NCBI RefSeq assembly: GCF_000385215.1
Contig: NZ_ARQK01000059.1
Span: 62,001 to 126,000, forward strand
DNA length: 64,000 bases
Source: Thioalkalivibrio thiocyanoxidans ARh2
GTDB taxonomy: Bacteria > Pseudomonadota > Gammaproteobacteria > Ectothiorhodospirales > Ectothiorhodospiraceae
Direction of reading: 5' to 3'
Shown: piece by piece, positions 2,056-12,965 of the stretch
How positions within the stretch are numbered: position 1 is the stretch's first letter
How the letters are laid out: the number at the start of each line of letters is the position of its first letter
Program-made: the position numbers and the translations under genes
Notes under the pieces: model-generated
What the model was told of the DNA's origin: nothing
What the model saw: the letters and a program-made list of their open reading frames with translations, nothing else
Database searches by the model: none

Positions 2056-2475
2056 ATGGCGGTGATCCACCACGATATGGAGATCGACGCTGCTCCGGAG
2101 GCGGTGTTCGATTTGATGGCCCGGGTGGAGGAGTTCGCCGCCTACAGCGAGGCCATCGACTCCATTACCTGCGTCGGGCCCGAGCGCTACCGCTGGTGTG
2201 TGCGGGTGGCCGGGGTTCCGCTAACCTTCGACGTGGAAGTGCTGGTCGCCGTCCCGCCGCGTCTGCTCGGCTGGCGCGCGCTGGCCGGGCTCTCCTGCGA
2301 GGGCTGCTACCGGCTGACTCCGATTGCGCGCGGCACGCATCTGCAACTGGCCGTGCGCTGCGGCGACGAGAATCCCCTGACCGATGGCCTGCTCGGCCTG
2401 GCGGCCCACCCGCTGCTGGACGCGCTGGGGGCGGAGGTAGTGCGCAACGCCTGGCCGCGCCTCCACGGGGCGTGA
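2056..2475 (+). CDS. SRPBCC (START-like) family protein
   Basis: This 139-residue protein has the layout of a single SRPBCC / polyketide-cyclase domain. It begins with a strand and a helix reading EIDAAPEAVFDLMARVEEF, followed by YSEAI and alternating strands that form the ligand cavity, and ends in a long C-terminal helix (HPLLDALGAEVVRNA). Such proteins bind hydrophobic ligands or act as lipid or quinone chaperones; the ligand cannot be read here. An in-frame TTG at 1999 would add 19 Arg-rich residues. The ATG is preferred because a GGAG lies about nine bases before it and the fold begins right after it. It is cytoplasmic and probably shares a transcript with the small gene upstream. Confidence 0.7.
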   Translation: MAVIHHDMEIDAAPEAVFDLMARVEEFAAYSEAIDSITCVGPERYRWCVRVAGVPLTFDVEVLVAVPPRLLGWRALAGLSCEGCYRLTPIARGTHLQLAVRCGDENPLTDGLLGLAAHPLLDALGAEVVRNAWPRLHGA

Positions 2476-2546
2476 TGCCTACGCCTCCGCGTGGAGCTCG
2501 CGGGATTCGTCGAGGGAGGCGAGGCCGACTATCCCCGACGGGCGGC

Positions 2547-2963
2547 TCACTCCACCGAGTAACCGAGCGCCACCAGGCCGGCCGCCAGAGAATCCGCCAG
2601 CATCGCGTGGCTTAGCAGGTGGTCGGCTGTGCCCGGGCTCCAGTCGTCACGCGCCGCGGCCAGGGCGTTCTCCCATTCGGCGATGTCGTAGTCGCCACGC
2701 CCCAGGCGGAATAGCGCCACCACCTGCTGCTGCTGATCGGGCTCCAGGTCGTCGATGGTGGAGCGAAACTCCTCGGTCGCCGTGTCGAACGACGGCGAGG
2801 GAGACTCCTCGTCCGGGTCTGGCGGGGTTTCCGCGCCGGAGGGGGCATCACGGTTGTCGCTGATGTCCGTGTACTCGCGGCCCTGGATGTCGCGCGCCAG
2901 CTCGATCAATCGCTGCACGGTATCCGGGTTCATATCGAGGAGCGGGCCGGATTCGTTGGTCAT
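2547..2963 (-). CDS. DUF3775 domain-containing protein
   Basis: This 138-residue protein has two parts. The N-terminal third (VQRLIELARDIQGRE) is followed by an acidic, proline-rich linker. The C-terminal domain contains LEPDQQQQVVALFRLGRGDYD and the alanine-rich HLLSHAMLADSLAAGL helix, which is the pattern of the DUF3775 family. The role of that family is unknown. It is cytoplasmic, with no signal or membrane segments. It lies 55 bases downstream of the HPF/cold-shock gene on the same strand and could be the last gene of that transcript. The family call is from recognition of the central motif and is fairly secure; the function is open. Confidence 0.75.
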   Translation of the reverse strand: MTNESGPLLDMNPDTVQRLIELARDIQGREYTDISDNRDAPSGAETPPDPDEESPSPSFDTATEEFRSTIDDLEPDQQQQVVALFRLGRGDYDIAEWENALAAARDDWSPGTADHLLSHAMLADSLAAGLVALGYSVE

Positions 2964-3018
2964 GGTGAAGGCCTCCGTTGGTTTGTTCGGGGCGTGGCCT
3001 GGACGGGCAGGGGGTGGG

Positions 3019-3645
3019 TCAGTCGCTACCGCGCCACTCCGGGGGCACGTCCTCGCGTTCGCGGGTCTGGTCGGTTTCGCGCTCGCCCGGCTTGTTCACC
3101 AGGCGCACCGTGCTGGCCTGCGGCCCTTCCTCGCCCATCGACGGCTCGAAGCGTACCTCGGTGCCCACCGCCAGGCGCGGAAAGTCGTGTCCGAGCACCG
3201 CATGTTCGTGAAAATAGAACTCGCGCCCGTCCGGCGTGCGCAGAAAGCCGTAGCCATCGTCCTTGAACACGCGCACCACCAGCCCCCGGTTCTCCTGATC
3301 CGCCGGCGCCAGGGTCGCGCGCGCGGTCTGGTGCACGGCCTTCGACAGGCGGCGCTCCATCGCGTCGAAGGCACGGTTGATCACCGGAAACAGATGGCTG
3401 GCCTGCTCCACCGTCACCGGCTCCTCGTGCACCACCAGCCGGCGGTTGCGCGGCAGGCGCACCTCGATGGTCACCTTGTAGGCGTTGCCCTTGTGCCGGT
3501 GGTGATGTGGCTGCGAGACGATCACGTGGCAGGAGACGATCTCGTCCGACATCCGCTCCAGCCGTGCCACGCGGTCGCGGATCAGTTCCTCGCTCCAGTC
3601 GGAGCGATCCACGTCGTGGTAGTTGAGTTCCAGGGGGATCTGCAT
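3019..3645 (-). CDS. HPF/RaiA-like ribosome-associated protein fused to a cold-shock domain
   Basis: The 208-residue protein joins two domains. Residues 1-105 match the beta-alpha-beta-beta-beta-alpha fold of HPF/RaiA, which binds the 30S decoding region and hibernates ribosomes; SQPHHHRHKGNAYKVTIEV is the central hairpin. Residues 121-185 are a cold-shock domain with the nucleic-acid motifs DDGYGFL (129-135) and EFYFHEH (142-148). The C-terminal tail is charged. The start is set by an AGGAGG ribosome site; an upstream in-frame ATG would add 41 unrelated Arg-rich residues. The gene lies 195 bp downstream of lon, and the HPF, Lon and Hsp20 genes together read as a stress or stationary-phase block. 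The fused cold-shock domain presumably adds RNA binding. Confidence 0.85.
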   Translation of the reverse strand: MQIPLELNYHDVDRSDWSEELIRDRVARLERMSDEIVSCHVIVSQPHHHRHKGNAYKVTIEVRLPRNRRLVVHEEPVTVEQASHLFPVINRAFDAMERRLSKAVHQTARATLAPADQENRGLVVRVFKDDGYGFLRTPDGREFYFHEHAVLGHDFPRLAVGTEVRFEPSMGEEGPQASTVRLVNKPGERETDQTREREDVPPEWRGSD

Positions 3646-3840
3646 GGTGCCTCCTCTGTCTTGCCGTGACCGTGTACCCGACGGGATCACGGCCGTGTCG
3701 TTGCTCGGCCAGTGCAGCGCGACGGCCGGACCCTGCCGAAGCCGGGCCTTGCGGCCGGTTCGGCGCATCAGGCGCTGCGCATGCGCGGCAGCCCGGTTCG
3801 TGGTCGACCACCCTCCTGCGCAGAAGTAGCCGGCCTGGGC

Positions 3841-6261
3841 TTATTCGGCGCTTCCCCTGGGGGTGTGCGAGTCGTTTCCCATCGGCGGCGCGAAGCGGTA
3901 GCCGCCTACCTCCTCCGTGGCCGCTTCCTGCGGCGGCGGCAGCAGTTCCGGGATCGCGGCCCGCAACGCGTCCTCGATGCGCTCGGCGAACAGGAACTCC
4001 ATCTCCTCGCGCACGGTATCCGGAAGGTCCTCCAGGTCCTGCTCGTTGTCGTGCGGCAGGATTACCCGGCGGAACCCGGCGCGCCGCGCGGCCAGCACCT
4101 TCTCCTTGATCCCGCCCACCGGCAGCACCAGCCCCGACAGCGTGATCTCGCCGGTCATCGCGGTGTCGCTGTGCACCGGGTGGCCGCTGTACAGCGAGGC
4201 CACCGCCGTTGCCATCGTCACCCCGGCGGAGGGGCCGTCCTTGGGGATGGCACCCGCCGGCACGTGGATGTGGATGCCACCCGGCGAGGGTCGGAACCCG
4301 AGCCGGCCGGCATGCGCCAGCGCCCAGTTCTGCGCCGCCTGTGCCGACTCCTTCATCACGTCGCCGAGCTGCCCGGTCAGGATCACCTTGCCCTCCTCGG
4401 GGATGCGGATTGCCTCGATATAGAGCACGTCGCCGCCGGTCGGCGTCCAGGCGAGGCCGGTGGCGACACCCGCTGGCAGATCCTTGCGTGCCTCCTCCGG
4501 GCGGAACCGCTCGCGCCCCAGCAGCTCGCCCAGCAGCTCCGGCTCGATGGTCGGTGGCACCTCGCCGGCCTCGGCGATGCGCAGGGCCAGCTTGCGCGCC
4601 AGCCGGCCGACCATCCGCTCCAGCTCGCGCACCCCGGCCTCGCGGGTATAGCGCGCGATCACCCGCAGCAGCGTCGCGTCCGGCACCTGGAACTGCTCCG
4701 TGCCCAGCCCGGCCTGGATGCGCTGGCGCTCGACGATGTAGCGCCGCGCGATCTCCAGCTTCTCCTCGTCGCTGTAGCCGGACAGGCGCACCACCTCCAT
4801 GCGGTCGCGCAGCGGCCCGGGGATGGTGTCCAGGGTGTTGGCGGTGGTGATGAACATCACCCGCGACAGGTCGAACGGCAGATCGAGGTAGTTGTCGCGA
4901 AACTCGGTGTTCTGCGCCGGATCGAGGACCTCCAGCAGGGCCGAGGCCGGATCGCCACGGAAGTCCTGGCCGACCTTGTCCACCTCGTCCAGCATCAGCA
5001 CCGGGTTGGCGCTGCCGGCCCGGCGCATGGCCTGGATGATGCGCCCCGGCATGGCGCCGACGTAGGTGCGCCGATGCCCGCGCAGTTCCGCCTCGTCGTG
5101 CAGCCCGCCCAGGCTCAGGCGCTCGAACTCGCGCCCCAGCGAGCGCGCGATCGATTTGCCCAGCGAGGTCTTGCCCACCCCCGGCGGGCCGACAAAGCAC
5201 AGGATCGGTGCGCGCGCCTCCGGGTTCAGGCGCAGCACCGCCAGATGCTCGAGGATGCGTTCCTTGATGTCGGCCAGGTCGTAGTGGTCCTCGTCCAGCA
5301 CGCGGCGGGCGCGGGCCACGTCCAGGTGGTCCTCGGTGCGCCGGGCCCACGGCAGTTCGAGGATCAGGTCCAGGCGGTTGCGGATCACCCCGTGCTCCGG
5401 CGAGGCCGCCGGCATGCCCTCCAGCCGCGTCAGCTCGCGCTCGGCCTCCTCGCGCACCGGCGCCGGCAGCTCCGCCGACTCCAGGCGCTCGCGCAGCTCT
5501 TCCACCTCCGAGGCGCCGGGGGCCTTCTCGCCCAGTTCCTTCTGGATTGCCTTGAGCTGCTGGCGCAGCAGGTACTCGCGCTGTTCGCGGCCCATCTCCA
5601 TCTTGGCCTCGCCGACGATCTGCCGGCGCAGCTTGCGCACCTCGTACTCGCGACGCATGTAGTCGAGCAGCAGGCGCATCGCCGCCTGTTGCTCGGAGGC
5701 CGCCAGCAGTTCCTGTGCCTGCGCGAGATCCAGCTCCAGCAATGTTGCCAGCAGGTACACCAGGTGCAACGGGTCCTCGACCTGGTCCAGCAGCACCGCC
5801 AGGTCGCGGGTGCCGAACTGCGAGTCCTCGGCGCGCAATTGCCGCGCCAGGCTCACCAGTTCGCGCTTCAGCGCCTCGGCCTCCGGCCCCGGCTCCAGCA
5901 CCACAGGCGTCGGGGTTACCCGCGCCATCAGGCAGTCGCCCTCGCGTTCGGTGCTTTCCAGGTGCACGCGCTCGATGCCCTCGACGATCACCTCCACCGT
6001 TTCCTCCGAGCGGATCAGGCGCTTGATCTCCCCGCGCGTGCCGATCGGGTGCAGATCGGCAAACCCCGGCTCCTCCACCTCGGGCTCGCGCTGGGCGACG
6101 ATCACCACCGACTTGTCGGCGCTCTCGGCCGCCTTTTCCAGCGCCGCGATCGAGCCCTTGCGCCCGGCCGAGTACGGCCCGGCGGTCATCGGGAACAGGA
6201 CCGAGTTGCGCAACGGCAGGACCGGGAGCAGCAGGGCATCCGGCTGAGTGGTCTCGCTCAT
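3841..6261 (-). CDS. lon: ATP-dependent endopeptidase Lon
   Basis: At 806 residues this is a full-length LonA. The order is an N-terminal substrate-binding domain (about 10-210), a coiled-coil stretch (220-285), an AAA+ module with Walker [10 protein letters not shown] (358-366) and Walker B LMLDEVDK, and a C-terminal protease domain with catalytic Ser678 in KDGPSAG and Lys721 in GIKEK. It degrades misfolded and regulatory proteins in the cytoplasm. Its start overlaps the hsp20 stop as ATGA, so the two are translationally coupled and the small chaperone may hand substrates to this protease. The short acidic, proline-rich tail after residue 775 is unusual. Proteobacteria often carry more than one Lon, so this may be a paralogue of the clpX-linked copy; that locus is not in view. 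Confidence 0.96.
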
Positions 6262-6629
6262 GGCTCCTCCTCGTTCAGCAGGATGTTCAGCAGCAGCATG
6301 CCGTGGCGCGCCTCACGCTCGATGCGGGCGGACTCCAGGTCCGCCGGCAGCTCGAAGGTGCGGCTGAACTCGCTGTAGGGAATTTCCAGACGCTGGCAGG
6401 CATGGCCCGCCCCGGGCGGTGAATCGCGGCGGCGACCGCGGACCACCAGAAAGCGTTCGTGCACTTGCACCCGCACTGCACCCGGGTCGACCCCCGCCAA
6501 CTCCAGCTTGATCAGCCAGCCGCGACGGTTGCGGTAGATATCCGCCGATGGGCGCCAGCGGCTGGGTCGGAGCTGTTCGGTGCGCGCCAGGACCAGGCGC
6601 CGGGTGAGACGGACAAGATCTGAATCCAT
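6258..6629 (-). CDS. Hsp20/alpha-crystallin family small heat-shock protein
   Basis: This 123-residue protein carries an alpha-crystallin domain: PSADIYRNRRGWLIKLELAG opens it, VHERFLVVRGRR is the central strand pair, and YSEFSRTFELPADL precedes the closing strands. The C-terminus [13 protein letters not shown] holds the strand normally ending in an IxI-type anchor, here as ILL. Small Hsps hold unfolded clients for later refolding or degradation. The start codon follows a GAGGAA site; an upstream in-frame ATG would add 26 Arg/Gly-rich residues with no homology to the fold. The stop overlaps the Lon start, giving a chaperone-protease pair. No clear sigma-32 promoter was found upstream, in contrast to the second hsp20 gene in this window. 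Confidence 0.88.
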   Translation of the reverse strand: MDSDLVRLTRRLVLARTEQLRPSRWRPSADIYRNRRGWLIKLELAGVDPGAVRVQVHERFLVVRGRRRDSPPGAGHACQRLEIPYSEFSRTFELPADLESARIEREARHGMLLLNILLNEEEP

Positions 6630-6949
6630 GTTTCCTCGACCGGTTGTACTGGTCGCCCCGCGTGCGCCAGGGTTGCACCGGACGCGGTTTTTCCGCCCGG
6701 CCGACATGCCCCGGCGTACGCCTCGGAGGCGTCCCGGATCCCCTGTATCCCGAGTCTAGACCACCCCCCGCGGTATCGATGGCGCCGCGCATCCAGATCA
6801 TGGCGGCTTCCTTGCCTGTGCATCTCGCGGGCAAGAATGCCCCGCCACGAGTAGGTACCCCGATGATCTAGGCTCCCAGGGAAAGGGCAGCGTGGATGCG
6901 CGGTGGATGGCGGCCGCGCGAACGGGTCGGGGGTGGGAGGGCAGCGCAG

Positions 6950-7993
6950 GTGGACGATTGCAGCATCGGCGAGAAGGTCGCGTTCCTGCGTCGGCCGGAG
7001 GCGTATCCGGCGGAGCGGCCGGCGCGGGTGGAGGTGATCGAGACGCACATGTCGTGGGTGTTCCTGACCGAACGGCATGTGTACAAGCTGAAGAAGCCGG
7101 TGCGCTATGCGTTTCTGGATTTCAGCACGCTGGCGGCGCGCGGGCGCGACTGCACGGCGGAGGTGCGGCTGAACCGGCGGCTGGCGCCGGATGTGTATCT
7201 GGGGGCGGTCCCGCTGAACAGGGATGCGTCCGGGCGCCTGAACCTGGACGGCGATGGCGACACCGTGGACTGGCTGGTACAGATGCGACGGCTTCCGGCG
7301 GAGCGCATGCTGGACCAGGTGGTCCGCGAAGGACGGCTGCAGGAGGTGGATCTGGAGCGGCTGGGGGCGCGTCTGGCGACGTTCTATGCGGGCTGCGAGC
7401 CGGTGGCGCTGACAGCGGAGGGTTATCGCCACCGGCTGCTGGAGACGGTGCGAGGCACCCTGGAGGCGCTGCTGGAGTCGGTGCCCGAGCAGGACCGCGC
7501 GCGCATCGAGCGCATCCTGCAGGCGCAGACGGCCTTGCTCAAGGAAGCCCCGGCGCTGTTCGACGCGCGCGTGGCACAGGGGCGCATCGTGGAGGGGCAC
7601 GGCGATCTGCGTCCGGAGCATGTGTGCCTGACACCGGAGCCGGTGGTGTTCGACTGTCTGGAGTTCAACCGCGAGTTGCGCACGCTGGATGCGGCGGACG
7701 AGCTGGCGTTCCTGGCGATGGAGTGCGAGCGGCTGGGAGCGCCGGAGGTGGGGCGGGTGCTGTTCCGGGTGTACGGCGAGCACAGCGGTGACTGGCCGGA
7801 GGCGCGGCTGCTGGCGTTCTACAAGTGCGGACAGGCCTGTGTGCGGGCCAAGCTCGCGCTGTGGCACATCTTCGAGCTGCCGCGGCGCGAGTGGGAGCCA
7901 TGGCGGGCGAAGGCCGCGGAGTACCTGGCGTTGGCGGACGGCTATATCGGCAGCGGGCAAGTGCCGCGGTTCAGTCCTCCTGCAGGTCCGTGA
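6950..7993 (+). CDS. Aminoglycoside-phosphotransferase-like (COG2187-type) kinase-fold protein
   Basis: The protein has features of the COG2187 family. The N-terminal part has THMSWVFLTERHVYKLKKPV, a nucleotide-binding strand pair with the conserved lysine, then FLDFSTL. The catalytic loop appears as EGHGDLRPEHVCL, and the metal-binding position follows in VFDCLEFN. Many family members carry a second P-loop kinase domain at the C-terminus; this 347-residue version lacks it. The substrate is unknown. GTG at 6950 is chosen because GGGAGG lies nine bases upstream and the family usually starts near this point; ATG at 6896 would add 18 Arg/Gly-rich residues. The 3' end overlaps the convergent PRPP synthetase gene by 23 bp. 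Confidence 0.75.
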   Translation: MDDCSIGEKVAFLRRPEAYPAERPARVEVIETHMSWVFLTERHVYKLKKPVRYAFLDFSTLAARGRDCTAEVRLNRRLAPDVYLGAVPLNRDASGRLNLDGDGDTVDWLVQMRRLPAERMLDQVVREGRLQEVDLERLGARLATFYAGCEPVALTAEGYRHRLLETVRGTLEALLESVPEQDRARIERILQAQTALLKEAPALFDARVAQGRIVEGHGDLRPEHVCLTPEPVVFDCLEFNRELRTLDAADELAFLAMECERLGAPEVGRVLFRVYGEHSGDWPEARLLAFYKCGQACVRAKLALWHIFELPRREWEPWRAKAAEYLALADGYIGSGQVPRFSPPAGP

Positions 7994-8966
7994 GCGACCC
8001 GCCTGCGTGCAGGCGGGTGATGGCCTGGGCGAACAGGGGCGCGGCGGAGACGATCTCCAGACGCTGGCCCAGCGCCTCGTGGTCGATCTTCGGCGGGAGG
8101 ATGGTGTCGGTGACCAGCACCCGCTCGAAGGCGTCGCTGGCGAGGTTTTCCTGCGCGCCGCGGGTGAATGCGCCATGCGCGGCCACCGCGAGCACGCGTC
8201 GGGCACCGGTCTCGCGGCAGGTGCGTGCGGCGTGCAGCAGGGTGCTGCCGGTGGCGATCAGGTCGTCCACCAGCACCACAGTGGCATCGCTCACGTCGCC
8301 GATCAGGCGGCCGAGGGTGAGCTTGCCGCCGGCGCGGGCCTTTTCGAAGAAGGCATCGCCCACCTCCCGACCGAGCTGATTGGCGAGGCGTTCGCGAAAA
8401 CGCACCGCGCGCTTCACCCCGCCCACATCGGGCGAGCAGACGACCACGCGGGTCTCCGGCTGCAGCTCGGGCGCGAGGTGCAGCGCAAACAGGCTGCGCA
8501 TCTCCAGGTGCTCGCGCGGGCAGCGAAAGGCGTTGTCGTAGGCGGCCGGGTTGTGCACCTCCAGTGCCATTACGCGGTCGGCGCCCATGGCCTCGATCAG
8601 CTGCGCGAGGTAGCGCATGGTGACCGGATCGCGCGGCTGGGTGCGGCGGTCCTTGCGTGCATAGCCGAGGTAGGGGAGCACCGCGGTGACGCGGCGCGCG
8701 CCGGAGTCGCGCACACAGGCGAGGAAGAACAGCAGCCGGCACAGGCGATCGTTGACGCTGCGCTCGGGGTCGGAGTGCAGCGCGTGCAGTACGTACACAT
8801 CCCGCTCGCGCACGCTCTCCAGCGGCCGCGCCTTGTGCTCGCCGTCCTCGAAGCCGCGTTCCTCGTGCTCCGCTAGCGGAAGGACCATGTGTTCGGCCAC
8901 ACGGCCACCGAATTCGCGCGATCCCTCCAGCGCGAACAGCATCGGATCGGATACGTTGCCGGGCAT
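7971..8966 (-). CDS. prs: Ribose-phosphate diphosphokinase (PRPP synthetase)
   Basis: It makes 5-phosphoribosyl-1-pyrophosphate from ribose 5-phosphate and ATP for nucleotide, histidine and NAD synthesis. The 331-residue protein shows the N-terminal phosphoribosyltransferase-like half with LPYLGYARKDRRTQPRDP (the flexible-loop/ATP region) and the C-terminal PRPP-binding loop VVLVDDLIATGSTL. The start follows GGAGGG at seven bases; an upstream ATG would add 29 residues. It ends convergently inside the neighbouring kinase-fold gene. The N-terminal 50 residues and the C-terminal segment are more divergent than in the usual ispE-linked Prs, so it may be a second, specialised copy. The chromosome's other prs is outside this window. 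Confidence 0.85.
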   Translation of the reverse strand: MPGNVSDPMLFALEGSREFGGRVAEHMVLPLAEHEERGFEDGEHKARPLESVRERDVYVLHALHSDPERSVNDRLCRLLFFLACVRDSGARRVTAVLPYLGYARKDRRTQPRDPVTMRYLAQLIEAMGADRVMALEVHNPAAYDNAFRCPREHLEMRSLFALHLAPELQPETRVVVCSPDVGGVKRAVRFRERLANQLGREVGDAFFEKARAGGKLTLGRLIGDVSDATVVLVDDLIATGSTLLHAARTCRETGARRVLAVAAHGAFTRGAQENLASDAFERVLVTDTILPPKIDHEALGQRLEIVSAAPLFAQAITRLHAGGSLTDLQED

Positions 8967-9077
8967 GTTCACGCCCTCCGTAAAGGTTTGCGGGGCTCTG
9001 ATCGGAGTGTAGATCGCGGCGTCCCGCGCCGCCCCGGTGCGCATGTGCTTCACTCAAGGGACGGGAGGTGCAGCGGC

Positions 9078-10190
9078 ATGAACGAGACCCACACCGTCCG
9101 GCTGATCCTGGCCGGGGACGTGATGACCGGGCGCGGCATCGACCAGATCCAGCCGACGCCCTCCGACCCCGAGCTCTACGAAGGCTACGTGCGCGATGCG
9201 CGCGACTACGTGGCGCTGGCCGAGCGCGCCAACGGCCCGGTGCCCCGCGCTGTGGAGCCGGGCTACATCTGGGGTGATGCCGTGCCTTTGCTGCAGGGCC
9301 CCGAGGCCGATCTGCGGATCATCAACCTGGAGACAGCGGTCACCACGTGCGACGAGCCGTGGCCCGACAAGGCCGTGCACTACCGCATGCACCCGGCCAA
9401 TATCGATTGCCTGCAGGTGGCCGCGCCGGACTGCTGCGTGCTGGCCAACAACCATGTGCTGGACTGGGGCCGCCCCGGGCTGGAGGAGACCCTGGACACC
9501 CTGCAGGAGGCCGGGCTGTGCGCTGTCGGGGCCGGGCACGATACCGACGGTGCGCAGGCGCCGGCGGTGCTCGCCTGTCCGCAGGGTGGGCGGGTGCTGG
9601 TGTTCGCGGCCGGTCATCGCAGCAGCGGGGTGCCGGGGGACTGGGCGGCGGATGCGGGGCGCTGTGGTGTGCACTACCTGCCCGACCTGTTGGATGCGAC
9701 CATCGACCGCCTCGGCAAGCAGATCGCCGCGGTGCGCCAGCCGGGCGACCAGGTGGTGCTGTCGATCCACTGGGGCAGCAACTGGGGCTATCCGATCTCG
9801 CAGGAGCAGACCGCGTTTGCGCGCGGGGTCATCGACCGTGCCGGGGTCGATCTGGTGCATGGACACTCGTCGCACCATCCGCGGGCGCTGGAAGTCCATC
9901 GCGGGCGGCTGATCCTGTACGGCTGCGGTGACCTGCTGAACGACTACGAGGGCATTGGCGGCCACGAGGCCTACCGCAGTGACCTGTCGCTTCTCTACAT
10001 CGCCACGCTACAGGACGGACGGCTCGCCGGCTTGCAGATGGTGCCGCTGCAGATCCGCCACCTGCGCCTGAACCATGCCGCGACTGACGACGCCCGCTGG
10101 CTGGCGGCCACCATGGACCGCGAGGCACGCCGCTTCGGCGGACGGGTATCCCTTGCCGAGGACAGCCGGTTGCATCTTTTCGTCAGTTAG
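9078..10190 (+). CDS. CapA family metallophosphatase-like protein
   Basis: The 370-residue protein matches the CapA / PGA_cap fold. It opens with LILAGDVMTGRGIDQ, carries INLETAVT and PDCCVLANNHVLDWG, and has HWGSNWG and HGHSSHHPRALEV near the C-terminus. These Asp, Asn and His residues are the metal-binding set of a calcineurin-like phosphoesterase. CapA of Bacillus acts in poly-gamma-glutamate export, but in proteobacteria the role is mostly unknown. There is no signal peptide, so this version looks cytoplasmic. The start is fixed by GGGAGGTG seven bases upstream. It is divergent from prs, and its stop overlaps the stop region of def by 8 bp. Confidence 0.85.
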   Translation: MNETHTVRLILAGDVMTGRGIDQIQPTPSDPELYEGYVRDARDYVALAERANGPVPRAVEPGYIWGDAVPLLQGPEADLRIINLETAVTTCDEPWPDKAVHYRMHPANIDCLQVAAPDCCVLANNHVLDWGRPGLEETLDTLQEAGLCAVGAGHDTDGAQAPAVLACPQGGRVLVFAAGHRSSGVPGDWAADAGRCGVHYLPDLLDATIDRLGKQIAAVRQPGDQVVLSIHWGSNWGYPISQEQTAFARGVIDRAGVDLVHGHSSHHPRALEVHRGRLILYGCGDLLNDYEGIGGHEAYRSDLSLLYIATLQDGRLAGLQMVPLQIRHLRLNHAATDDARWLAATMDREARRFGGRVSLAEDSRLHLFVS

Positions 10191-10719
10191 TCGCGTGGAA
10201 TTCGCGGTACTCGTCGAGGAAGGCGAGGCGGGTGGTGTCGGTGACGCGGTCGATGAACAGAGTGCCGTCGAGGTGGTCGATCTCGTGCTGGAACACGGTG
10301 GCGAGGAACCCTTCGGGTTCCAGATGGCGGGGCGTTCCGTCGGGTTCGTAGTAATCAACGGCGATGTGGCGCGGCCGGGCGACCTCGCCGCGCAGGCCGG
10401 GCACGGACAGGCAGCCTTCCCAGTAGCGTTGCGGGGTCGGGTCCAGCACGGTCACGGTCGGGTTGACGAGGACGAGGCGGCCGGTGGGTACGGCACCGGG
10501 GTAGCGGGTGTTGCCCGGCTGGATCTCGATCACGGCCACGCGTTGCGCCACGCCGATTTGCGCGGCGGCCAGGCCAAGCCCTTCGTTGGCATGCATGGTG
10601 TCGACCAGGTCATCAACCAGGGCGTACAGCTCGGGGCTGGCAAATTGCGAGTCGGGTACCGGGTCGCAGACGCGACGCAGGTCGGGGTGCCCCATGCGCA
10701 AAATACGGCGAACGCTCAT
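10183..10719 (-). CDS. def: Peptide deformylase
   Basis: It removes the N-formyl group from nascent proteins. All three family motifs are present in the 178 residues: motif I GLGLAAAQIG (47-56), motif II EGCLSVPG with metal ligand Cys103, and motif III QHEIDHLDG with His145, His149 and catalytic Glu146. It lacks the usual partner fmt nearby, so this is probably one of several deformylases. Its first ~25 codons and the 16 bases before the ATG are duplicated, in diverged and frameshifted form, at 11392-11471 on the far side of the toxin-antitoxin module. The upstream region was therefore rearranged. Confidence 0.93.
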   Translation of the reverse strand: MSVRRILRMGHPDLRRVCDPVPDSQFASPELYALVDDLVDTMHANEGLGLAAAQIGVAQRVAVIEIQPGNTRYPGAVPTGRLVLVNPTVTVLDPTPQRYWEGCLSVPGLRGEVARPRHIAVDYYEPDGTPRHLEPEGFLATVFQHEIDHLDGTLFIDRVTDTTRLAFLDEYREFHATN

Positions 10720-10774
10720 GGGAAGGATGATGCCACGATGCCGTATCTTCCGCCCTCGCGTCGGGATGCCAAAG

Positions 10775-10815
10775 TTGACATACCATATTTAGCATACATA
10801 CTCTATTTGGTATGT
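10775..10815 (+). promoter_or_regulatory. Promoter and palindromic operator of the toxin-antitoxin module
   Basis: TTGACA at 10775-10780 is a perfect -35. A -10 hexamer CATACT (10797-10802) follows at 16 bases. An 8-bp perfect inverted repeat, ACATACCA (10778-10785) and TGGTATGT (10808-10815), has its arms about 30 bp (three helical turns) apart, one overlapping the -35 and the other the toxin ATG. This is the layout expected for autorepression by the HTH antitoxin. The local sequence is AT-rich in a GC-rich genome. Binding by the antitoxin is inferred. Confidence 0.6.
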
Positions 10816-11093
10816 GGGATGTCTTTGAACACAAGAGGGTAGAAAAGAACCTGGCGGCCGCGCCTGCTGAAGTTCAGAAGCGGTACGAGAAGTGGAAGGA
10901 CATCGTCACCATCTCCGGTCCGCAGGGGTTGCGGCATATTCGGGGCTTCAACGACGAAGCCTTGTCCGGTAAGTGGAAAGGCTTCCGATCGTCGCGACTG
11001 AATATCCAGTACCGCGTTATTTACCGGGTGGAGAAGGACAAGGTGCTCGTAGAAGTCGAGAAGATAACTCCCCACGATTACGGGAGGGCGTGA
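10812..11093 (+). CDS. HigB/RelE-ParE family toxin of a type II toxin-antitoxin system
   Basis: The 93-residue protein is of RelE/ParE fold: an N-terminal helix pair (RVEKNLAAAPAEVQKRYEKW), then LRHIRGFNDEALSGKWKGFRSSRLN, then a strand QYRVIYRVEKDKVLVEVEKI. Basic residues in the central strands would form the mRNA-cutting site. The toxin precedes the antitoxin, as in HigBA. The ATG lies within the putative operator, only about 10 bases after the predicted -10, with no Shine-Dalgarno sequence, so the toxin mRNA may be leaderless or nearly so. The cassette sits in a rearranged def / tRNA-Phe interval and is likely acquired. Confidence 0.88.
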   Translation: MWDVFEHKRVEKNLAAAPAEVQKRYEKWKDIVTISGPQGLRHIRGFNDEALSGKWKGFRSSRLNIQYRVIYRVEKDKVLVEVEKITPHDYGRA

Positions 11094-11094
11094 C

Positions 11095-11355
11095 ATGAGT
11101 GATTATCGCAAGGCAGACAGGAGGGTCGAGGTTTCGGTTGGCGAATCGGTCCGGATCCTGCGTGAGCTTCAGGAAATGAGCCAGAACGATCTGGCGAATG
11201 CCTCCGGGATCCCCCAGTCGACCATTTCGGCCATTGAGAATGACCGCGTACGACTCGGTGTTGATCGTGCCAAGGTCCTGGCAAGGGCATTGCGCTGCCA
11301 CCCCGCCGTACTCGTATTCCCGGGCTGGGATGTCGAGCATGAGTCGGCCGCATAG
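11095..11355 (+). CDS. XRE-family helix-turn-helix antitoxin
   Basis: The 86-residue protein contains a complete Cro/C1-type HTH: VGESVRILRELQEMSQNDLA, then ASGIPQSTISAIENDR as the recognition helix region, then VLARALRC. It should bind and neutralise the upstream RelE-like toxin and repress the shared promoter. It starts one base after the toxin stop, with GGAGGGCG inside the toxin 3' end as ribosome site, so the two are co-translated. The C-terminal tail VLVFPGWDVEHESAA probably contacts the toxin. Its 3' end overlaps, on the other strand, what remains of an old def coding region. Confidence 0.88.
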   Translation: MSDYRKADRRVEVSVGESVRILRELQEMSQNDLANASGIPQSTISAIENDRVRLGVDRAKVLARALRCHPAVLVFPGWDVEHESAA

Positions 11356-11454
11356 CCATCAAGCCATTCGGGGACACTCAAAGTCGGATCAGGTACCAGG
11401 CCGAAGGCACGACGCACGTCGGGGGTCCACGCGCAGGATACGGCGAACGCTCAT
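11356..11454 (-). pseudogene. Frameshifted N-terminal remnant of a second peptide deformylase gene
   Basis: The segment 11392-11471 is an imperfect direct copy of 10655-10736, which is the first codons of def plus 16 bases upstream. Both begin MSVRRILR. A 2-nt deletion after codon 8 shifts the remnant into another frame, where it continues PDVRRAFGLVPD, aligning with PDLRRVCDPVPD of the intact gene. Many differences fall in third codon positions, so this is a diverged homologue rather than a fresh target duplication. The remainder was replaced by, or lies antisense within, the antitoxin gene. It sits between the toxin-antitoxin module and tRNA-Phe. Confidence 0.7.
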
Positions 11455-11482
11455 GGGAAGGATGGTGCCACAGGAGAGATAA

Positions 11483-11558
11483 TGGTGGCCGGGGACGGAA
11501 TCGAACCGCCGACACGGGGATTTTCAATCCCCTGCTCTACCGACTGAGCTACCCGGCC
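11483..11558 (-). tRNA. tRNA-Phe (anticodon GAA)
   Basis: The minus strand folds into a full cloverleaf of 76 nt including an encoded CCA end. The acceptor stem is GGCCGGG/CCCGGCC, the anticodon loop is TTGAAAA within a GGGGA/TCCCC stem, and the T-arm carries GGTTCGATTCC. The anticodon GAA reads phenylalanine codons. It adjoins the def remnant and the acquired toxin-antitoxin module. Confidence 0.96.
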
Positions 11559-11650
11559 ATTTTTCGGAGGGATTCGCCCTTTGGGCGAAGGGCGGTATTA
11601 AAGCGGTCCGGGGCGTCCACGTCAAGCAAACGCGGCCGAACCGCCCGGAA

Positions 11651-11926
11651 TCAGGACTGGTTCGGGTCGACGAAGCCTTCTGGCTTTTCCGAGCCATCTC
11701 CGAACAGGAATTTTTCCATTTCCTCTTCGAGGAACTTGCGCGCCTTGGGATCGACCGGGGTGAGGCGGTATTCGTTGATCAGCATGGTCTGGTGCGCCAG
11801 CCAGGCATTCCAGGCTTCCTTGGAGACGTTCAGGTAGATCTTCTTGCCCATCTCGCCCGGGTAGGGCGGGTAGTCGAGGCCCTCGGCCTCCTGGCCGAGT
11901 TTCACGCAGTTAACGGTTCGTGCCAT
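11651..11926 (-). CDS. yggX: Oxidative damage protection / Fe(II)-trafficking protein YggX
   Basis: The 91-residue protein has the family start [24 protein letters not shown], the single conserved cysteine Cys7, and the signature [17 protein letters not shown] and [10 protein letters not shown]. YggX protects Fe-S clusters from oxidants and influences iron movement in the cytoplasm. It begins inside the 3' end of mutY (17-bp overlap), as in the conserved mutY-yggX pair of enterobacteria. Pairing with an Fe-S glycosylase fits a shared oxidative-damage role. Length and sequence are typical, and no oddities were seen. Confidence 0.96.
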
Positions 11927-12965
11927 TGCCGGAATCCTTGTGGTCGTGCAGATAACGCTGGATGGGGGCCGGGATGCCGACCGCCCGCGATGTGCCGGGT
12001 TTATACCAAATCGACCTGTCGCCTTCCATGATCCCACACGCGTTCGGCGGGAGCCGGTAGCAGTGGATGCGCAGATCGAGGTGGTAGTGGCTGAAGGTGT
12101 GGCGCAGCCCGTTGGTGTCGTGGGCCTCGGCCTGCGGCCACTGGCTGCGCACCCACTGGTCCAGTTCGGGCGCCTCGGCGGCCTCGGGGAGGCTGTACAG
12201 CCCGCCCCAGATGCCCTGTGCCTCGCGTTGCACGAGCAGGCTGCCTTGTACGGTTTGCAGGTGGGCGGCGTGGCGGATGCGCGTGGGGAGGTCCTTGCGC
12301 GGGCGCGGCGCGGGCAGCTCCCCGGTCCGGTCTTGCGCCAGAGCCTGGCAGTCGCCGGCCACGGGGCATTGCGGGCAGTCGGGGCGGGTACGCGTACACA
12401 GCAGGGCGCCCAGGTCCATGATGGCCTGGGTGTAGTCCGCGCAGCGGGTAGTCGGGGTGCGGGCTTCGGCCTCGGCCCACAGCTCGCCCTGCACGGCCGG
12501 GCTGCCGGGCCAGCCATCGATGGCCGCGTGGCGGGCGAGCACGCGCTTGGCATTGCCGTCCAGGATGGGCTCGGGGCGGTCATGGGCCTGGGCGATGATC
12601 GCGGCCGCCGTGGAGCGGCCGATGCCGGGGAGCTGTTCCAGGGCCTCGCGCGTGTCCGGGAAGCCCCCGCCATGCTCGCTCACGATGTACCGGGCTGCGC
12701 GATGCAGGTTGCGGGCGCGGGCGTAGTAGCCCAGGCCCGACCACAGATGCAGGACCGCGTCCTGCTCGGCGGCCGCGAGTGATTCGACGTCGGGGAAGTG
12801 CTCGATGAAGCGCTGGAAGTACGGGATCACCGTCTCCACGCGTGTTTGCTGCAGCATGATTTCGGAGACCCAGACGCGATAGGGCGTGCGCGGGTGCTGC
12901 CAGGGGAGGTCGCTGCGCCCGTGCCGGTCGAACCAGCCGAGCAGGCGTTCGGCGAAGGGTGTCAT
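11910..12965 (-). CDS. mutY: A/G-specific adenine glycosylase MutY
   Basis: It removes adenine mispaired with 8-oxoguanine in base-excision repair. The 351 residues show [11 protein letters not shown] with the catalytic Glu, the helix-hairpin-helix [12 protein letters not shown] followed by the catalytic Asp in ILDGNAKRV, and the Fe-S cluster loop with cysteines spaced C-x6-C-x2-C-x5-C near residues 205-221. A C-terminal Nudix-like 8-oxoG recognition domain ([11 protein letters not shown]) follows. The start MTPFAERLL fits the family; an upstream ATG would add 60 Ala/Arg-rich residues. It is translationally linked to yggX. Confidence 0.95.

Follow-up and report, generated by a model that had tools for sequence, protein, structure and literature searches.

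A toxin-antitoxin gene pair of Thioalkalivibrio thiocyanoxidans ARh2 lies between an intact peptide deformylase gene, def2, and the gene for tRNA-Phe, and a broken copy of the 5' end of def2 separates the pair from the tRNA gene. How did the pair come to lie there, and why is the 5' end of a deformylase gene present on both sides of it? The DNA analyzed, hereafter the window, is a stretch of 64,000 nucleotides (assembly GCF_000385215.1, contig NZ_ARQK01000059.1, positions 62,001 to 126,000). It was compared with other Thioalkalivibrio genomes, which are designated by G numbers; G000 is the genome of the window. The features of the locus are collected in Table 1.

Table 1. Features of the def2/tRNA-Phe locus, in window coordinates
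Feature	Position	Strand	Basis
SRPBCC (Polyketide_cyc2) gene, neighbor of def2 in the presumed ancestral order	2056-2472	+	PF10604, 49.8 bits; 93% to the G040 neighbor
def2 3' stub with intergenic stretch behind the SRPBCC gene	about 2466-2525	-	sequence comparison
7.7-kb block: Lon, Hsp20, unassigned ORF, PRPP synthetase, PGA_cap	2526-10182	.	
def2, intact second (accessory) peptide deformylase gene, 178 aa	10183-10719	-	Pfam PF01327 Pep_deformylase, 162.4 bits
Intact repeat copy: def2 nt 1-65 and 17 nt upstream	10655-10736	-	sequence comparison
def2 leader/module junction	10731-10745	.	sequence comparison; TGCCAC at 10731-10736
Candidate sigma-70-like promoter of the module (TTGACA, 16, CATACT)	10775-10802	+	consensus match only
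RelE-superfamily toxin, 93 aa	10812-11093	+	NCBIfam TIGR02385, 32.9 bits (cut-off 27.9)
HTH antitoxin (HTH_3), 86 aa	11095-11355	+	PF01381, 52 bits (cut-off 23)
def2 5' stub (about nt 1-76, 2-nt deletion) and 17 nt upstream	about 11379-11471	-	sequence comparison
Spacer adjoining tRNA-Phe, same sequence as in G040/G041	11472-11482	-	
Intact tRNA-Phe(gaa), 3' end towards the module	11483-11558	-	ARAGORN

A direct repeat and a def2 stub flank the module

The imperfect direct repeat reported around the module by the first-pass annotation was recovered at the same place. Positions 10655-10736 and 11392-11471 align over 82 gapped columns at 82.9% identity (blastn E 1.6e-18, searched against a small set of loci) and contain an ungapped core of 45 nt at 91% (10692-10736 and 11427-11471). 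The 655 bp between the repeats hold the gene pair and its upstream region. The distal copy carries the 2-nt deletion described for it; it is the frameshifted remnant of a def 5' end and lies next to tRNA-Phe. The span given for the repeat holds, and the def homology of the stub reaches slightly deeper, to about 11379.

Mismatches between the stub and the resident gene had been described as falling mainly at third codon positions. The counts are 5, 6, and 7 at positions 1, 2, and 3, respectively, a spread that is expected of a stub no longer coding. They are sparse near the ATG, with 2 in nt 1-24 and 16 in nt 25-78. We agree with the earlier view that the repeat is not a recent target duplication; a target-site duplication is rejected in view of the divergence of the two copies.

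The toxin-antitoxin pair

The toxin scores above the cut-off of the RelE/StbE model, which amounts to a curated assignment to the RelE superfamily. Its predicted structure (pLDDT 80.9, pTM 0.67) gave 19 matches in the PDB at E <= 0.001, comprising YoeB, YafQ, RelE-family and H. pylori toxins and one HigB. The antitoxin gene starts one base past the toxin stop codon on the same strand, and the two form a putative operon. A TTGACA with an AT-rich stretch, similar to the candidate promoter, is found upstream of many homologous toxins. Gene order (toxin first), families, and predicted fold are those of RelE/HigB-type toxins with an HTH antitoxin. In contrast to those systems, the pair is known here from sequence and predicted fold, and the toxin reaches only 19.4 bits against the Pfam HigB-like model (cut-off 27); the antitoxin scores 21 bits against the NCBIfam HigA model (cut-off 47.7), so that the pair is not HigBA proper. 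By analogy with its families the pair probably works as an ordinary toxin-antitoxin module, in which the RelE-type toxin would be kept in check by the HTH antitoxin, itself the repressor of their common promoter.

A close antitoxin (at least 94%) is present in 6 of 30 genomes of the genus (G000, G001, G002, G004, G005, and G011), and three others give weak matches of 35-39%. The module-bearing loci include, by name, those of Thioalkalivibrio sp. ALJ3, AKL19, ALE31, ALJ21, and ALMg11 (n = 5). The antitoxin is intact in all six module-bearing genomes. The toxin is intact in four (G000, G005, G004, and G011) and broken in the other two, the front part being missing in G001 and the gene being split by a 168-bp insert in G002. 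This insert (L074, about 1193-1360) has inverted repeats and is MITE-like in look. Between G000 and G011 the codon differences are 23 synonymous and 9 non-synonymous in the toxin and 15 synonymous and 2 non-synonymous in the antitoxin, a synonymous excess that would fit a gene pair maintained by selection. At the G005 locus (L062, 1090-1140), a 51-bp fragment (86%) of the 3' end of a second, diverged antitoxin lies to the left of def2.

def2 is a second deformylase gene

The deformylase gene beside the module had been taken for an essential-type gene. It is a second def; the canonical def of this genome lies elsewhere (G000:C56), is 43% identical to def2, and is followed by a frame taken by eye for fmt. 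The protein encoded by def2 has the motifs GLGLAAAQ, EGCLS, and QHEIDHLDG. That the def next to the module is a second copy is easily misread, and it means that linkage to an essential gene is not a likely reason for the persistence of the module. def2 is present at an identity of at least 89% in 10 of 25 genomes of the genus (that of the window included), and also in G040 and G041. None was found beside tRNA-Phe in G009, G022, and G042, of which G022 retains a short 5' trace.

Accessory peptide deformylases on mobile DNA have been described (PMC12690207). To judge from the part of that paper available, they resemble def2 in being second def genes that accompany a canonical copy and vary between species; def2, unlike those cases, is chromosomal and adjoins tRNA-Phe. 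At the position of E. coli residue 97, counted from motif II and unaligned, the canonical def (L002, 1501-1956) has Tyr and def2 has Arg. In the portion of PMC12690207 at hand, V. cholerae Def2 has Tyr97 and the arrangement of Def1 and Def2 is the opposite.

The locus in related genomes

In G024, G040, and G041 the site is free of the module and the order is SRPBCC - def2 - 28 bp - tRNA-Phe - yggX - mutY, the 28 bp separating the def2 ATG from the tRNA gene. All six close antitoxins sit between def2 and tRNA-Phe, and the junction of antitoxin and stub is common to all six genomes, which belong to two clades (in G011 it has an 8-nt insertion). In G002 and G011 the duplicated segment is longer than in the window. 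It spans def2, leader, and spacer and runs into tRNA-Phe (112 and 116 columns, respectively, at 78%), and the def2-side copy ends in a tRNA-Phe 3' fragment of 26 nt in G002 and 28 nt in G011. The 3' end of the tRNA gene is thus repeated at both ends of the module in these two genomes; this repeat is absent in the window. The sequence TGCCAC occurs in the def2 leader and again 5' of the module in G002 and G001; in G000 and G005 the two stretches are joined. The copy upstream of the module is TGTCAC in G011 and TGCCGC in G004.

More complex arrangements were found in three genomes. From left to right, G004 has a def 3' stub, a YefM-like antitoxin, def2, AbiEii (135.9 bits), a def 5' stub, the module, and a second def 5' stub, beyond which lie 49 nt of tRNA-Phe, a phage-integrase element (integrase 55.3 bits, Pfam), and the intact tRNA-Phe. 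The stack of def stubs, YefM-like, AbiEii, and RelE/HTH genes occupies L069 1513-5872, and the integrase element 5872-12654. A comparable element, again flanked by the 49-nt tRNA-Phe repeat, is present in G021, with an integrase frame judged by eye to be near-identical. In G007, def2 is preceded by a 3' stub and followed, after about 4 kb, by a tRNA fragment of 23 nt, a def 5' stub of 52 nt, and a YefM-like gene, with the intact tRNA gene at the far end. This gene is called YefM-like because it is nearly identical to the G004 ORF, itself a match to PhdYeFM; an ORF at the G007 locus is presumably YoeB from its look. The locus beside def2 and tRNA-Phe therefore gathers incoming DNA repeatedly, with AbiEii, YefM-like, and integrase genes at the same place in relatives, and def2 is whole in the genomes in which this has happened (G002, G004, G007, G011, and G021).

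The left side of def2

A stub of the 3' end of def2, which the first-pass annotation had missed, lies behind the SRPBCC gene; with it, both ends of def are represented by stubs outside the intact gene. The 7.7-kb block between this stub and def2 was not seen beside def2 in the 11 other def2-bearing loci read. Its PGA_cap protein has no match in 10 of the 14 other genomes read at the locus and partial matches of 34-36% in G007, G009, G024, and G042; the best other matches among 30 genomes are at 54% (G015) and 50% (G010). A single event for both sides of def2 is ruled out, since G001 has the module with SRPBCC directly at def2. Two events are needed, and the left block of the window is separate. 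The stub and block on this side are the mirror image of what is found with the module at the other end of def2.

Origin of the two copies of the def2 5' end

Eleven sites around the def 5' end discriminate G040/G041 from G024. The stub shared by G000, G001, and G005 is of the G040/G041 type at each of the five sites spanning nt 19 to -22; deeper into def, one site is of the G040/G041 type, three are of the G024 type, and two are neither. The intact copy of the window is of the G024 type at 8 of the eleven sites (among them 19, -11, and -18, of which -18 falls directly at the junction with the module), of the G040/G041 type at one (12), and neither at two. From these site patterns both copies look like hybrids, as would be left by a crossover inside the def 5' end.

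Sites -18 and -22 serve as a marker of the species clade, where clade A comprises G040, G041, and the stubs of G000, G001, and G005, and clade B comprises G024, G022, and the stubs of G002, G011, and G004. The tRNA-side copies that adjoin tRNA-Phe follow the species clade in 10/10 cases. The def2-side intact copies of G002, G011, and G021 read clade A at these sites even though the genomes belong to clade B, which for G002 and G011 fits an incoming origin. In G021 (L085) the copy stands beside the 49-nt tRNA-Phe fragment, where a clade-A spacer is unexpected for plain integrase insertion; this counts against the clade marker.

Within def2, the window differs from G024 at 1 position in nt 1-72 and at 21 in nt 73-180 (Fisher p 1.2e-4, for a break chosen after the alignment was viewed). 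The same contrast against G040 gives 6 and 20 differences (p 0.082) and is not significant. With the spacer left out, identity of the stub across the repeat is 84.1% to the resident gene, 85.4% to G040, and 86.6% to the intact G005 copy. The stub is thus not closest to the resident gene, which would have told against the first-pass reading, but the margins are small on a stub so short and decayed, and tests of its origin are weak.

Probable exchange between species

Trees of rpoB with its flanks and of the yggX-moaC flank group G000, G001, G005, G040, and G041 (SH-aLRT 100). The comparison of def with the species tree that had been proposed as a check revealed a conflict: def2 rejects monophyly of the window's clade (p-AU 2.9e-6, for a clade set by the other trees, which were viewed together with the first def2 tree), and G001 pairs with G004. 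Between the window's clade and G002, G004, G011, G021, and G024, the mean difference at 4-fold sites is 0.24 for def2, 0.43 for mutY, 0.29 for rpoB, and 0.14 for SRPBCC, the last value excluding G005 and G011, which are without SRPBCC at this locus. On these sequence comparisons, def2 and its left neighbor were probably exchanged between clades. In the module, G000 and G004 differ at 9 of 85 4-fold sites; the corresponding value for rpoB is 0.27 (binomial 1.8e-4). A difference so far under that of rpoB suggests that the module too was probably exchanged between clades. At another pair of genomes, G007 and G013, the 4-fold difference is 0.41 for rpoB and 0.14 for mutY, which suggests recombination at one locus.

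The near identity of the stub and antitoxin in three species defines the unit that moved. The stubs of G000 and G001 agree at all 91 nt compared, that of G005 is nearly the same, and the antitoxins of these genomes differ at 0, 2, and 2 of 47 4-fold sites. At the 4-fold rate of rpoB (12-14% among the three), zero stub differences in 91 sites would have a chance of 3e-6 under a rough model. The def2 bodies, in contrast, differ at 15-26% of 4-fold sites. Recent joint travel of a whole def and the module is therefore not supported; the mobile unit was the module, the stub, and at most the first part of def2. As all carriers share one junction of antitoxin and stub, the fusion arose once. The same junction in six genomes of two clades speaks against the reading of the stub as simply the old gene of this lineage.

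A proposed mechanism and its alternatives

The best explanation in our view, to which we give an even chance, is that the islet was inserted by a crossover in a docking segment and was later moved by its flanking homology. The docking segment would measure ~135 bp, extending from the first ~80 nt of def2 through the leader (17 nt) and the spacer (11 nt) to the final 26-28 nt of tRNA-Phe. Incoming DNA would have borne its own copy of this segment together with the toxin-antitoxin pair, and one crossover would have produced two copies, on the left a whole def2 ending in a tRNA-Phe fragment and on the right a def2 5' stub that continues into the intact tRNA-Phe. G002 and G011 show this full two-copy state. 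In the lineage of the window the tRNA fragment would have been lost by deletion between two TGCCAC repeats; the leader TGCCAC of the window and G005 is joined to the sequence that follows the module-side TGCCAC of G002, which is the mark of a short-repeat deletion. The block of def2 5' end, module, and stub would then have passed between species via homologous recombination in the flanking copies, and the 7.7-kb block at the def2 3' end would represent a separate event. The crossovers may have been made by RecA or by a tyrosine recombinase in trans.

Insertion is favored by the occurrence of empty, full, and tRNA-scarred sites, by the one shared junction and the hybrid copies, and by the use of tRNA-Phe as an attachment site by the elements of G004 and G021. 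A crossover with a module-bearing segment that runs from the def2 5' end to the tRNA gene leaves each copy complete on its outside and cut where the shared segment ends. Against insertion stand the window itself, which has no tRNA fragment and for which a loss has to be assumed, the exceptions to the clade marker on the def2 side (G002, G011, and G021), the break at nt 72 that loses significance against G040, and the variation of the upstream TGCCAC in G011 and G004. The order of tRNA fragment and stub in G007 needs an extra step. Stubs also occur at the def2 3' end (G000, G004, and G007) with no tRNA involved, so tRNA docking cannot explain everything. The islet has no recombinase gene and no circular form of it was seen; an integrase of its own, such as an integrative element at tRNA-Phe would have, was not found between the repeats of the window.

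The history put forward in the first-pass annotation was one of replacement. In such an event, incoming DNA with a def 5' end and the module would have joined through homology within def2 at one end and by illegitimate recombination at the other, the old 5' end being left as the stub. Homology-facilitated illegitimate recombination is the subject of PMC3240628, in the part of it that we saw. We regard this history as possible but rather unlikely. Part of it stands: G040 and G041 (and G024) lack the module at a site with the short def2-tRNA spacing, the tRNA-proximal stub sites match G040/G041, and def2 is mosaic and conflicts with the species tree. It would also account for the stubs from either end of def that lie apart from the intact gene in G000, G004, and G007, and for the two successive 5' stubs between def2 and the tRNA gene in G004, as serial replacement leaves them. 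G004 and G007 have several stubs, derived from both ends of def, and for them such serial replacement is a good rival. What it does not predict is the tRNA-Phe 3' scar of G002 and G011. Replacement yields a stub but no tRNA fragment beside def2, hence our preference for insertion. One junction of antitoxin and stub in two clades is likewise at odds with it, unless a single event then spread. A relic of the CIME kind, in which a tyrosine recombinase in trans put the islet at the tRNA-Phe 3' end so that the 26-28-nt repeat represents attL and attR and the def stub was captured earlier, seems improbable to us. tRNA 3' repeats are indeed found in G002 and G011, in G007 (23 nt), and around the elements of G004 and G021 (49 nt), PMC5704250, in its accessible part, describes how decayed elements accrete at a single att site, and the def2-side copy of G021 departs from its own clade. 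The repeat, however, reaches far past the tRNA core into def2, the core lengths are unlike the 49 nt of the integrase elements, and the spacer on the tRNA side, expected to stem from the element, agrees with the species clade in every case. Least likely is that resident def2-tRNA DNA was duplicated in tandem on the spot and acquired the module between its two copies afterwards. The direct repeats do end in def2 and tRNA-Phe as it would have them, but the short module-free loci of G024, G040, and G041 contain no duplicate, the two copies match different genomes, and the one junction in two clades again speaks against it.

Returning to insertion by docking, a broader version is conceivable in which def2 serves as a docking gene. 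Islets without a recombinase would carry copies of its ends and of the tRNA 3' end, enter there, and leave the gene whole, and RelE/HTH, AbiEii, and YefM-like genes would pile up as a layered record with the oldest stub nearest the tRNA gene. We hold this generalization to be doubtful.

Relation to known systems

Integrative elements are known that give their target gene a new 5' or 3' end, as SXT does at prfC and e14 at icd. There, as here, the target gene stays whole and a displaced stub lies at the far side. Unlike SXT and e14, the islet has no integrase, and both ends of def2 are affected. tRNA-gene hotspots with accreted, decayed elements of the CIME type (PMC5704250, as far as its available text goes) are alike in the repeated use of the tRNA-Phe 3' end, in the presence of full and partial tRNA copies, and in the stacking of an integrase element on older cargo, as in G004. 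They are unlike the present locus in that here the duplication extends into a protein gene, def2, and the islet is without a recombinase. Literature searches on toxin-antitoxin with def or peptide deformylase, tRNA-Phe, or Thioalkalivibrio returned nothing on this locus among the matches listed, as judged from the parts of the sources that were displayed, which does not prove that it is undescribed.

The locus belongs to a known kind of insertion hotspot, here with a toxin-antitoxin islet that adjoins a tRNA gene and an accessory def. What is unusual is how well intermediates survive and that it is a part of def2 which has been duplicated. Since a single genus contains empty, full, and half-decayed sites, the locus illustrates how a gene pair without transposase or integrase can settle and spread between species via flanking homology.

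Homologs outside the locus

Of 46 homologous loci, 44 were examined, the two weakest (L207 and L208) being left out. A def is present in the same locus as the antitoxin in 5 of the 44, all of them Thioalkalivibrio (flanks of up to 4 kb, many contigs being shorter). Searches of plasmids with the antitoxin and toxin were empty at E 1e-5, and viral contigs, when scanned, yielded no relative. A present integron cassette was rejected, as attC was found behind the pair in 0/5 Thioalkalivibrio loci. An attC-like site lies behind the antitoxin in 4 of 39 other homologous loci, compared with 4 of 1760 random segments, by a pattern that was written after these sites had been seen. These sites, in other bacteria (L173, L179, L194, and L204), suggest that the family also travels as integron cassettes.
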